Assembly (NCBI GenBank): GCA_944319735.1
Contig: CALUEU010000003.1
Location: forward strand, 186,001-250,000
Length of the DNA stretch: 64,000 nucleotides
Direction of reading: 5' to 3'
Source: an uncultured Methanomassiliicoccus sp.
GTDB lineage: Archaea; Thermoplasmatota; Thermoplasmata; Methanomassiliicoccales; Methanomassiliicoccaceae
This document shows, piece after piece, positions 1,176-39,607 of this stretch (its first letter is position 1; each line of letters begins with the position of its first letter). A model generated the notes under the pieces. The model had not been told where the DNA came from. It did not search any database and worked only from the letters and a program-made list of their open reading frames with translations. The position numbers and the translations under genes were made by a program.

Positions 1176-1723
1176 ATAATCAGGATCGGCAGTTATAATC
1201 CGTTAGGGAAGTGCCTACTTAGTTAATTATTTATTGTAATTATAAATAATTTGCAATTGACTAATCTGGAAATATAGTAATGAACTCGATCTAAGATCTT
1301 TTGTAATCAATGGTAGCATGTTTGCACTCTCATCGGTACCTCCGCACGATTTAATAATATGGCAAAATATTCACACATGCTGGCTAGTTACAGCTCATAG
1401 ATATTTTTAAGTGTAGACCATATTATTAATTGTAACATCCAGTTAGAATTGTACTGAATTTTATTGCAGAGTTATCATTCATGATTTTAAAGAAGCTGGA
1501 ACTATGAAAATATAGAATAAATCAAACAATAGCCTAATAAATAAGTTCAATATCTAAAAAAATCTAATTTAATAGAAAAATTTGCAAAGAATGTTTTAGC
1601 CAGTAATGATTTCTGCCTTGAATATAAGGCGTTATAACGCACAACTACACTCTGTACTATGTTATTAAATCAATGCGGAGGTTTCGTCTCATATGTTTGC
1701 TGTAAAATACAGCAGTCTCCTAC
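1176..1723. other. Gene-free AT-rich stretch
   Basis: No open frame of useful length, no tRNA-like fold and no clear promoter was found. The only local structure is a short hairpin, GCTGTA-AAA-TACAGC, at about 1699-1713, just before the adhesin 3' remnant. The stretch may be decayed sequence upstream of that remnant, but nothing in it can be aligned by eye to the intact adhesin gene. Confidence 0.5.
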
Positions 1724-1828
1724 TTAAAGAAAGATGATAACAATATAATATACTACGCTGTTGCAGCAGTAATTGTCATTCTGATCATCATCGCTTTAGC
1801 ATATTACTTCATGAAGAAAAAGCAGTGA
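1724..1828 (+). pseudogene. Remnant of a surface-adhesin gene 3' end (C-terminal membrane anchor)
   Basis: This short frame encodes KKDDNN followed by IYYAVAAVIVILIIIALAYY and FMKKKQ. It is almost identical, at DNA and protein level, to the last ~33 codons of the large adhesin gene at 34810-39607. Identity continues past the stop into the shared 3' hairpin. Upstream of about 1724 the similarity stops and the frame closes at TAA 1703-1705, so the rest of the gene is missing. It is therefore a truncated relic or recombination scar of a second adhesin, not a gene. It shows that this organism has or had a family of such proteins with a conserved anchor and 3' UTR. Confidence 0.85.
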
Positions 1829-34251: not shown

Positions 34252-34809
34252 GAACCAGTATTCTTATTCAATGCTATAGAGTTTTTGTTATTTCTGAATG
34301 TCTGGTATGTAATCTAAAATATTTTCAATATCTGTTTTTCTTTCTTAGATATTTTATTTGATGTATGTTGATATGTGACACCTCTCAGATATTCATCAAG
34401 CTTATTTCAAAATCATTGTTATCTATTGAATCTGTACATTCTCCATGTAAGCATACTCTCGATACTTTGAACATATTTTTCATTAATGAGATTTGATAAA
34501 TTAGTTTAACTTAGTTTTTATGTAATGTATTAGATTGAAATACATACTCTTGGTTAACCTTGTATCTAAATATAGATGCTTATCTGGTAGTCTTTATATT
34601 TATATAGAATCCTAATAGCATGCATATATATTGTTTTATTATTCATGCAAGATTGTTATGTGTCTGGACGTCAGCATATAGACCTCTGCGATATTTTTGA
34701 CAATGCTCTCAGTCAGCTGAAGCTCTGTTGAAATTTTCTACTGTGTTTATATGCAAGACATTCAGAGAATAAATTCCTTGAAAAGATAGGAAATAATATA
34801 GGTGAGCAT
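34252..34809. other. AT-rich intergenic region, adhesin promoter
   Basis: There is no gene or RNA fold. A TATA-rich segment (TTTATATTTATATAG, about 34594-34609) could be the promoter of the adhesin, which would leave a long leader of nearly 200 bases. GGTGA lies four bases before the adhesin ATG at 34810. Confidence 0.45.
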
Positions 34810-37800
34810 ATGAATAAAAAGAGCAAATTGATACTGGCATCCGCTGTATTTATTGCGGCATTAATGCTGCTTGTACCTTTGTCTCAGGCAAACGTGCCTG
34901 GGGGGGGGGGTACAGGAAAATCACAACTCCGATCCAATTGTTTTGAGTGAATCAACAACTGAGCAAACTTTTGATTACTATGTTTCTTCTACTAATGGTG
35001 ATGATGCCAATAATGGACAATCATCAGATGTGGCGTTTAAAACTATACAAAAAGCTATTGAAGCAGCGGCTGCAAACACTACAGATGGTGTAAAGCAAAT
35101 TTCTGTTGCTGCAGGTGAGTACAAAGAAGATTTGACAATAAATAACTCAATTACTATTATTGGTGAATCTGGTGCTCTTGATAATTTAACTACAAAAATA
35201 GCTGGTGCTGATTCTAGTAAGTCAAACACGATCTCTATTACCAACACATCTGGTGCTGATATTTCTATAACTCTTAAAGATCTCAGCATAACCCATACAG
35301 ATGCTAAAGCTTGGAATGTAGAAGATAGAGCAGTAAATAATGATGCAGCTGTTTCTTTAGAACCTTCAGCTCACAATATAAATTTATCAGTTACTAATTG
35401 TTCTATATCCAGCACTGGTGTAAGTAACCGTGCTACAGCTTTAAACATCTTCACTGATAGCAATGTTAACATATCCAATTCTAAAATCTTTGCAGAGTAT
35501 TATGGCATTCATGTAGATCTGCATCCAACTGTAGCAATTGGATCAGACATTACTGCTGACATCCTTGACAGTTTCAGTTCTGGTGCCAATCCAACTTTAA
35601 CAATTACAAACAGTAGTGTTGATACATACACTGCCCTTACAAACGATAAATACCCAATTTATCTAAGAAGTGGAGCTAATTATACAATAAATATTAACAA
35701 CAATTCTAATGTGATTGGATGGTGTGCATTATACACTAAACCTGGTTTTATTGCATCTACCATTAATGTAGAAAATTCTAATCTTATTGGGATGAATAAT
35801 TACGCGGGAACTTCTAATGATTTTGGTGTTGTAGTTATCGAGGATCCAAATAACTATTCTGATGCAAGTAATTATTCATCTAGGAATGGTAAGAATAATG
35901 AAATAAACATCAAATCAGGCAGCACAATTTCTAATTATTTACCCAATGTCAGTAATTATTATAAAAATCAAGAATATCCGATAGTATTTAATTCATATTC
36001 TCAATATGTTAGTAATCAAAACAGCCTTTGCAACATCACAAAAAATACAAGTGTTGTAAATATTGAAGATTCAACACTCGCTCTTGGAGACAATCTTACA
36101 AAGAATTTTATCAATCAAAATCAAAACAATACTAACAACTATGAAAATATTAAACTTACTGGCAATGTAGAGTTTGAATATGTAAATGGTGAAGACACTT
36201 CAAAAGCTCCTCTGATATATGGTATATTAGATGATAAGGAAGTTTTCAAAAATGCTTCATCAACAATTCAGTCAGCAATTGATCTGGCAGAGAATGGTGA
36301 TATCATCAGATTGCCTGCTGGTATATATACTGAAAATCTGACAATAAATAATAACATTACAATATCCGGAGTTGCTGAAAGTTCTGAGAGTTATTCAACT
36401 CAAATAGTTGGAAAGATTTCAGTGACTGCCATTGGTGCGGTGACTCTTGAAAATTTAAATCTAACATATGTAAGTACAACTAATGATCTTCAGGCCGTAG
36501 TTGAACTCAATGCTGCAGGAAATCTGACAATTCAAAATGCAATTATAACTCCTAATATACAAAGCAATGGAAATTACTGTTCTGGCGTATTAATATCTGA
36601 GGATAATTCGGGTGCAAAGCTAACAATCAATAACACAACCATTCACGCAGATGGAGATGGTGGACGTGGAGTGGCAATAAGATCACTTGGGTCTATAACA
36701 ACTATTTCTGATTCTACAATAACTGCAAATGGAGGAAAGTATGGATCTGCAATTCATATGAATACTCAGAATTCTGCAAATTCTGCCACACTAAACATCT
36801 CAAATTCAACGATTACCGCTCAAAAATATTATGGTATTTATTTACACATGGGAACTTTCACTATAAACATTACAGATAATTCAAAAGTCTCTGGATTTGC
36901 AGCATTATATCTTAAACCAGATTGTATAAATTCCACCGTGAATATATCCAAATCTGAACTTGTTGGAATTATGCAATATGGTGGAACCAGTAACAATTTT
37001 GGAACAATAGCCTTTGAAGGAGTTAACAACACTATTAATATCAAAGATAATTCTATTATAACCAATAAGTATATTTCAGGTGGAGAGTGTCGTGAATATC
37101 TGATCTTATACAGTAATTACCGTTCTAATGGGGCGGATCCAACTGCAAAAGATAACTCAGTCATTGCAGATTCTAGTGTAAAATTTATAAACACTAATAT
37201 TGAAAAATCTCCCGTTTGGATAAGTTATAATGGCAATTCGAATAGCATATCAGCTGATGATGCCCAGTTTTTATATGTTGCTGATGAGTCTTCAAAACCC
37301 GCTCCAATTGTATTGAAAGATAAATCTGGACAGGTTAAAAATGCAGTATCAACATTCACCGATGCCCTATATTTACTAGATGATGAAGACATAATTGAAA
37401 TCGCTGCAAACACAGAATATGATTCTCTAGTTGTCCCAGGTATTGGAATATCATTTTCAATTGTTGGTAACAATTCAACAATCAAGGGACTTTCATTAGC
37501 TGTTGCATCAGAAAAGACTGTAAATATTTCTATCTCTGAAGTCAATTTCACAGAAAAAGGTCTCTTCATATCAGGAGCAAACAATGTAACAATCACCAAT
37601 TGTACATTCACTGATATATCTTCAGGATTTGAAACAACCGATCTGGTAGGAATTTCTACAAATATGTATCACCCCACAGCAATTCATGTTCAGAATTCTT
37701 CAGGAAAAGTTCTGATTGAAGATACTACAATCAATGAAGTTGGTGGAGGAAAAGAAGTTAACAAAAAGTTCATGGGAATTTCTATAACTAATCTCAAAAA

Positions 37801-39607
37801 CAATACAAACACATCTTCAATTGAGATAAAAGACAATGATATACTCAATGTAGATCACAACGCAGTGTACATCTTTGGTAAATATTCTACCATCTCAATA
37901 ACAGATGGAAATAAAATCTCTGAATGGGACAAAAACAATGACAGTATTGACACTGTCCAAGATAAAAATTTTGCAGGTGGACGCGCTGTCAGACTTGATG
38001 TGACATGTGAAAACATCATCATCTTAGATAATTCATTTATTAAAAATTATTTAAAAACATCAGATCAAGATGCTGTAATATTCGGATCTGATTTAGGTGA
38101 TTCAACTGCAGAATCCAACATTGGCTATGATGACGGAAACATTCTGAAAACTAATGCAAATGCAGAATTTAAAAACAATATTTTAGTTCTATCTGGTATT
38201 GACACATATGATTATGCAAATCTCTTCATAATCGGATCAAATGAGAACAAGAAGATGGTTACTTTCAATCCCAACGGTGGATACTACTATACTTCTTCAG
38301 AACCAGGAGTATTGTGTTCCATAGTTGCTGCCAATGACACAGTTTCTAAACCAACTGACCCTTCAAGGTCCGGCTCATATTCATTCAATGGATGGTATGA
38401 TGCAGCAACAGGCGGAAACAAACTAACACTCCCGTTAAGCATAACTGCAGACACAACTCTCTACGCTAACTGGACATACACTGGAGGATCAGGAGTTCCT
38501 GTAACGCCGCCGACAGATCCTGAAGAACCTGTAGTCAAGGAAGAAGAAATTGAGAATGAAGACGGAACAATTTCTTCAATAACTGAAACAACAGTAACAA
38601 AAGAAAACGATGACGGTTCGAAAGAAACTATCGTAGAGAAAGAAGAAGTTGTTAAAGACAAAGACGGAAACGTTCAGTCAGTAATTGAAGAAAAGCAGAG
38701 TGAAGTTGTAAACAAAGACGGTTCAACAAACAAGACTTCTGAAAAAGTTGTTAAAGACAAAGATGGAAAAGTAATCGAAGAAAAGACTGAAATTGAAATT
38801 GAAGACAAGAACACAGGCGTTTCAACTTCAGTTGAAATCACAAAAGGCTCTGACGGAAAAGCAGCTTCAGAAATAACAACTCAGACTTCAGTCGAGACTA
38901 AAGACGGAAAGGCACAAGTCAGTTCAGAAGTTTTAAATGAAGCATTAAAGCAGGCAGAAGCAGCTAAGAAGGCAGCAGAAGAAAAAGGCGCAAAAGATGC
39001 AAAGCCTGTGATTGAGATCGAAGCAGAGAACTCAGAAGACTTCACAGAAACAGAAATTTCAACAGAAGACTTGTCAAAGCTTGCAGAAGCAGAAGTAGAT
39101 GTTAAGATCAAAACTGCAACAGGGGAAGTAAACATACCTCCTGAGGTCTCAAAGAACTTATCATCAAACGCAGATGAGAAAGTCTCATTGTCATTCGGAG
39201 AAGCTGACAAACAGAAATTAACAGAAGAGCAGAAGAAGACTGTAGGCGACGCACCTGTATTCGAGTTTAACTTAAAGTCGGGAGAAAAGGACATTCATGA
39301 CTTAGGAGGAACTGTAAAAGTAACAGTACCTTATGAACTCAAAGCAGGAGAAGATCCTAACAAAATCACAGTCTGGTATATTGATGAAGAAGGAAACCCT
39401 GTAGCAATGAATTCAGTGTATGACCCTGAAACGAAATCAATAACATTCGAGACATCACACTTCTCATACTACTTCATTGCAGAAGATACATCAATTCCGA
39501 ACGACAAGAAAGATGACAACAACACAATATATTACGCTGTTGCAGCAGTAATTGTCATTCTGATCATCATCGCTTTAGCATATTACTTCATGAAGAAGAA
39601 GCAGTGA
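34810..39607 (+). CDS. Large surface adhesin-like protein (beta-helix, Listeria-Bacteroides repeat), frameshifted at a poly-G tract
   Basis: The signal peptide MNKKSKLILASAVFIAALM...LSQA starts at ATG 34810 (GGTGA upstream). Eleven Gs at 34900-34910 put the rest one base out of frame; ten would restore a protein of about 1598 residues. The mature part contains three parallel beta-helix modules starting near 34973, 36232 and 37316; modules 1 and 2 share an ALYTKP/ALYLKP...GTSN motif and look like a duplication. A Listeria-Bacteroides repeat follows (VTFNPNGGYY...SFNGWYD...YANW, about 38256-38475). Then come charged Glu/Lys repeats and a C-terminal membrane anchor ending FMKKKQ. It probably mediates attachment at the cell surface. 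In the sequenced state it is off, or the tract is miscounted. Confidence 0.85.
34900..34910 (+). repeat. Poly-G tract (11 Gs) within adhesin gene
   Basis: This homopolymer lies four codons after the predicted signal-peptide cleavage site. With 11 Gs the frame runs into TGA about 13 codons later; with 10 or 7 it joins the long frame. Long G tracts are otherwise absent from this AT-rich gene. Confidence 0.9.

Follow-up and report, generated by a model that had tools for sequence, protein, structure and literature searches.

The 11-G tract that separates a signal-peptide leader from a 4.7 kb adhesin-like frame in this stretch of methanogen DNA is very likely a slipped-strand (replication slippage) contingency locus, one of about 15 in the phasome of its genome and an example of a device common to other Methanomassiliicoccales, although switching in living cells is inferred. 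The window (the whole stretch analysed, 64,000 nucleotides, 42% G+C) belongs to a draft genome of 1.77 Mb in 21 contigs (G000), hereafter the source genome. An earlier note had assigned the window to an archaeon. The assignment held, since the McrA of the source genome is 87-90% identical to most records from Methanomassiliicoccus and other Methanomassiliicoccaceae.

The tract at the adhesin locus

The locus opens on the forward strand, which carries all its features given here, with a Shine-Dalgarno-like AGGTGA (34800..34805), placed as AGGTGA-N4-ATG before the start of the leader; a similar motif also precedes the starts of the paralogs. The leader itself has 30 codons, MNKKSKLILASAVFIAALMLLVPLSQANVP (34810..34899), and is recognised as a signal peptide from its sequence and from paralogous leaders at other loci. 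It runs directly into the homopolymer (34900..34910), the proposed switch. As read from the frames, 11 G lead to a TGA that closes the leader frame (34948..34950), i.e. the OFF state, and leave the adhesin-like frame (34913..39607; 1,564 codons plus a stop codon at 39605-39607) offset by one base from that of the leader. Within the adhesin frame itself, no start codon is accompanied by a signal peptide. The geometry claimed previously (ATG at 34810, an 11-G run, a one-base separation, fusion with 10 G) held, and the frames are also joined by 13 or 16 G. The glycine codon GGG makes up only 8.6% of Gly codons in the long ORFs of the window, which argues against the run of GGG at this locus being an ordinary Gly linker.

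The adhesin (L014) is intact and shows dN/dS of 0.31-0.51 against its paralogs. It contains a Listeria-Bacteroides repeat domain (PF09479, List_Bact; 38258..38467; Pfam match, E 3.1e-12) and its sequence ends in a C-terminal hydrophobic anchor with a basic tail, TIYYAVAAVIVILIIIALAYYFMKKKQ (39524..39604). The adhesive function proposed in the earlier note remains an inference. The C-terminal region matches 13 places in the source genome. A fragment resembling the anchor, interrupted by an internal TAA and probably a gene remnant, lies at 1682-1825 (+) of the window. Structure prediction of the first 560 residues past the tract gave a strand-rich but unusable model (mean pLDDT 42.7), a sequence search of the PDB found no relative, and no relatives of the adhesin were confirmed in IMG/VR and GTDB genomes.

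Long G tracts of the source genome

The source genome holds 15 long G tracts, far beyond chance. Every one of its G-runs of at least 8 is 11-15 long (n=15). From the base and GG statistics of the genome itself, 0.044 runs of at least 11 G/C would be expected genome-wide, against 15 observed, whereas runs of 8-10 G are absent even though about 6 runs of at least 8 are expected. In a 312 kb sample of the genome, the G/C-run lengths are 4, 5, 6, and then 11. This gap between the short lengths and 11 indicates that the long tracts form a separate, maintained class. Hence, one criterion for membership among slipped-strand (SSR) contingency loci, a simple sequence repeat longer than chance, is met.

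Ten of the 15 tracts are found at junctions between a signal peptide and a surface protein (L009, L012, L013, L014, L017, L018, L019, L020, L021, L022). The proteins concerned include List_Bact-repeat adhesins and their paralogs (L014, L013, L017, L019, L022, L009) and GLUG proteins (L020, L021), while two loci sit at contig ends: L018, with a frame exceeding 2,452 codons, and L012, cut off with only about 30 codons past the tract. The start of L009 is not clear. Four junction loci are ON, i.e. in frame (L018, L019, L021, L022), and four are OFF (L013, L014, L017, L020). A single acyltransferase gene (Acyl_transf_3) holds two tracts of 11 G each, where 10 or 13 are needed, and both are OFF. 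All OFF tracts of the source genome with a clear start (6/6) are off by the same +1. Four tracts do not fall neatly at such junctions (L011, L012, L015, L016); surface-protein genes follow downstream of L015 and possibly also of L012 and L011. A 15-G run on contig C4 (L016:5136-5150) precedes an ABC-transporter-like frame by about 90 nt. The computed frames satisfy a further criterion, that a change of one unit toggles the reading frame.

Tract length differs between close paralogs: L013, L019, and L022 have almost identical flanks and 13, 12, and 12 G, and L012 and L018 have a common upstream flank and 12 and 11 G. The criterion that repeat number varies between close sequences is therefore met, only among paralogs within one genome. 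The adhesins called OFF are open and stop-free over 1,314-1,587 codons, and dN/dS against paralogs is 0.07-0.51 in every comparison, which argues that they are not relics and meets the criterion that OFF genes remain under selection. On contig C7, an additional break interrupts the frame of the ON adhesin about 340 codons past its tract (L019:6560-6580).

A separate observation concerns five loci of the same genome (L061-L065), whose upstream region and signal peptide, MKTEKRLTMALSVLVALMMLAVPLASSSNLFVDGGQTNSNGDAP, are identical; the proteins that follow differ, and there is no poly-G. They lie at the end of C2 and at C5:2667-2804(-), C13:2660-2824(-), C15:2088-2240(-), and C16:2207-2344(-), all at or close to contig ends, and resemble shared-leader cassettes or leader recombination, which could possibly represent a second variation system.

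Tracts in other Methanomassiliicoccales

Across the 147 Methanomassiliicoccales genomes surveyed, most have 0-3 tracts of at least 11 G and some have many; the 210 genomes sampled from elsewhere in the phylum have between 0 and 6 each. Raw counts from GC-rich genomes were left out of the evidence because the contexts look like chance: in the GC-rich family members and in G066 they are mostly random-looking. L027 (G005, on a contig of 40% G+C) is an exception, with a signal peptide, G10, and at least 623 codons off by one.

The richest case is G056, identified as Candidatus Methanoplasma glyptotermitis by its identical mcrA locus, with 76 tracts of at least 11 G. About 50 of them belong to one paralogous family of BspA-type (LRR_5) surface proteins, with a common layout: ribosome-binding site, ATG, leader of 16-23 codons, G11-13, signal peptide, BspA leucine-rich repeats, and C-terminal anchor. 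Despite differing leader lengths, 32 of 36 paralogs require n = 1 mod 3, with compensating junctions. A common in-frame class in the face of variable leaders and junctions implies that leader and protein form one conserved coding frame, which further supports a toggle of the reading frame by one unit. The 36 classified paralogs comprise 3 ON and 33 OFF copies, the latter split into 16 and 17 between the two wrong frames (binomial p = 0.0005 if one third were expected to be ON, indicative only because paralogs are not independent). A start downstream of the tract was considered for this family and rejected, the sole candidate codon being mostly CTG or TTA. Another tract of this genome lies 29 codons into a D12 DNA adenine methyltransferase gene (L094, MethyltransfD12), which is OFF by one. 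Together with the source genome, these cases meet the criterion of surface or DNA-modification targets (List_Bact_rpt, GLUG, BspA LRR, Acyl_transf_3, MethyltransfD12).

Other Methanomethylophilaceae also show the signal-peptide junction, OFF in L265 and ON in L288, the latter from a closed genome where a signal peptide, G11, and a 994-codon surface protein are in frame. Other placements exist. In L253 (1-9001; G098 C5:184500-193500), consecutive PKD-type proteins have tracts immediately before the C-terminal anchor, which is in frame in one of them and shifted or truncated in the others; tract phase could conceivably set whether the protein is anchored or truncated and released. In L260, the tract is just ahead of a DPPY motif, on which alone the methyltransferase assignment rests. 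In several genomes of the family, genes for signal-peptide proteins carry a G10-13 tract about 45 nt ahead of their ATG. Such 5'-leader tracts (L250, L251, L252, L258, L259, L261, L264, L265, L295, L296) are followed by a C/U-rich stretch able to pair with the G tract, and the adjoining hairpin includes the Shine-Dalgarno. The z-scores are modest (-1.2 to -3.0), and an RNA-structure switch is no more than a possibility. The longest run seen, 23 G, lies inside an otherwise open 229-codon frame (L267:2217, G073 C1). A Pfam search gave no match from which to propose functions for L102(-) and L100.

MutS was above cut-off in none of the 147 genomes of the order and NucS in only 2 of the 147, in searches that were positive in control genomes. 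Without the known mismatch-repair enzymes homopolymers would be free to slip; this is consistent with hypermutation and does not prove it.

Slippage, its rivals, and known systems

Slippage at the G tract is the simplest account of 1) the tracts and their frames; 2) their over-representation; 3) the phases and lengths of the paralogs; 4) the constraint on OFF genes; 5) the independent families; and 6) the lack of a confident MutS and the near-absence of NucS. Under this model, replication slippage would add or remove one G directly after the signal peptide, the surface protein would thereby enter or leave the frame of its only signal-peptide-bearing start, and a clone would become a mixture of ON and OFF cells. 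The same device would act at other placements in other Methanomassiliicoccales. A high rate of tract length change in living cells is inferred, in the absence of reads or a second strain, as are an effect of the switch on adhesion and the role of phage or of host and microbe interactions as the selective force.

Three alternatives deserve consideration. The true tract might have 10 G, with the adhesin simply expressed and the eleventh base an error of assembly or sequencing. In a draft genome such as this one, the length of a homopolymer may be miscalled, and the uniform +1 of the six clear OFF loci could reflect a calling bias of one base. We nevertheless find this very unlikely, because even so the tracts exist far beyond chance, and neither their placement nor their conservation is touched by miscalling. 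Furthermore, four other loci of the source genome are called ON, near-identical paralogs have unequal lengths, both wrong frames are present in G056, and a closed genome (L288) shows the same junction in frame.

Recoding is another option: ribosomal frameshifting or RNA-polymerase slippage would give some full-length protein from every copy, and tract length would matter little. Polymerase and ribosome are both known to slip at long homopolymers (PMC3711429), and all clear OFF loci of the source genome need the same shift. Yet programmed frameshifting predicts one conserved phase, whereas close paralogs show ON copies and both wrong frames, and we consider this explanation very unlikely. It could also be argued that frameshifts have turned the OFF genes into decaying pseudogenes, in line with the additional frame break of the L019 adhesin and the truncation of L012 past its tract. 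This too seems highly improbable, because the OFF adhesins stay open over 1,314-1,587 codons with dN/dS well below 1 and the frame break falls at the G-run in each case. Slippage remains the preferred reading. The earlier note's interpretation of the locus as a poly-G contingency switch of a surface adhesin agrees with all that was tested, and 14 more tracts, the phase-mixed paralogs, and the independent cases in Methanomassiliicoccales add to its strength. The ON/OFF switching it invoked is still inferred, as length variation in reads has not been shown, and the gut setting has not been shown for the source genome.

The archaeal tracts resemble the poly-G contingency loci of Campylobacter and Helicobacter in their length, in their position within reading frames, and in their targets, which are surface proteins, an acyltransferase, and DNA methyltransferases. 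The known mismatch-repair enzymes appear to be missing in the archaeal order, as in Campylobacter and Helicobacter, which are not known to have them. The differences lie in the archaeal host, in the main target (a large family of paralogs, secreted and adhesin-like, whose tract lies at the signal peptide), and in nearly all G056 copies being called OFF. The 11-13 G leader tracts of Methanomethylophilaceae, with their C/U-rich stretch, recall the G-repeat in the 5' leader of Helicobacter pylori tlpB, the target of RepG (PMC8295292); unlike in that system, the C/U-rich partner is in cis, beside the Shine-Dalgarno hairpin, and no small RNA was identified.

A previous survey of homopolymeric tracts in 99 prokaryotes, 18 archaea included, proposed that coding tracts act as gene-inactivation switches (PMC2831843). 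Its signal is one of short poly(A)/poly(T), its poly(C)/poly(G) have no 5'-end bias, and its bearing sections contain no long archaeal G tracts. In a 2025 review, archaea are mentioned only as a group to which the distribution of loci may be extended in future (PMC11868660). An abundance of List_Bact and LRR proteins has been described for host-associated Methanomassiliicoccales (PMC7883539), in a work whose bearing sections do not mention phase, frameshift, or homopolymer. We found no report of slipped-strand or poly-G contingency loci in archaea in the open-access literature searched. The type of switch is already known in bacteria, and it is likely that its presence at genome scale in archaea, and placements such as the membrane-anchor toggle, are new.

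A bolder reading, towards which we lean without great confidence, is that of a true archaeal phasome, where poly-G was recruited independently to surface families, DNA methyltransferase genes, 5' leaders, and membrane anchors. The termite-gut species would then keep about 50 BspA-like proteins mostly OFF, with few ON at a time, in an archaeal parallel to antigenic or receptor variation. Slipped-strand phase variation has so far been a topic of bacteria (and phage), and the question can be addressed at once with existing metagenome reads. If true at genome scale, it would explain how non-pathogenic methanogens diversify their surfaces in the face of viruses, hosts, or partners. An annotation of frameshift or truncation in an archaeal surface gene may then, in many cases, mark a gene in the OFF phase.
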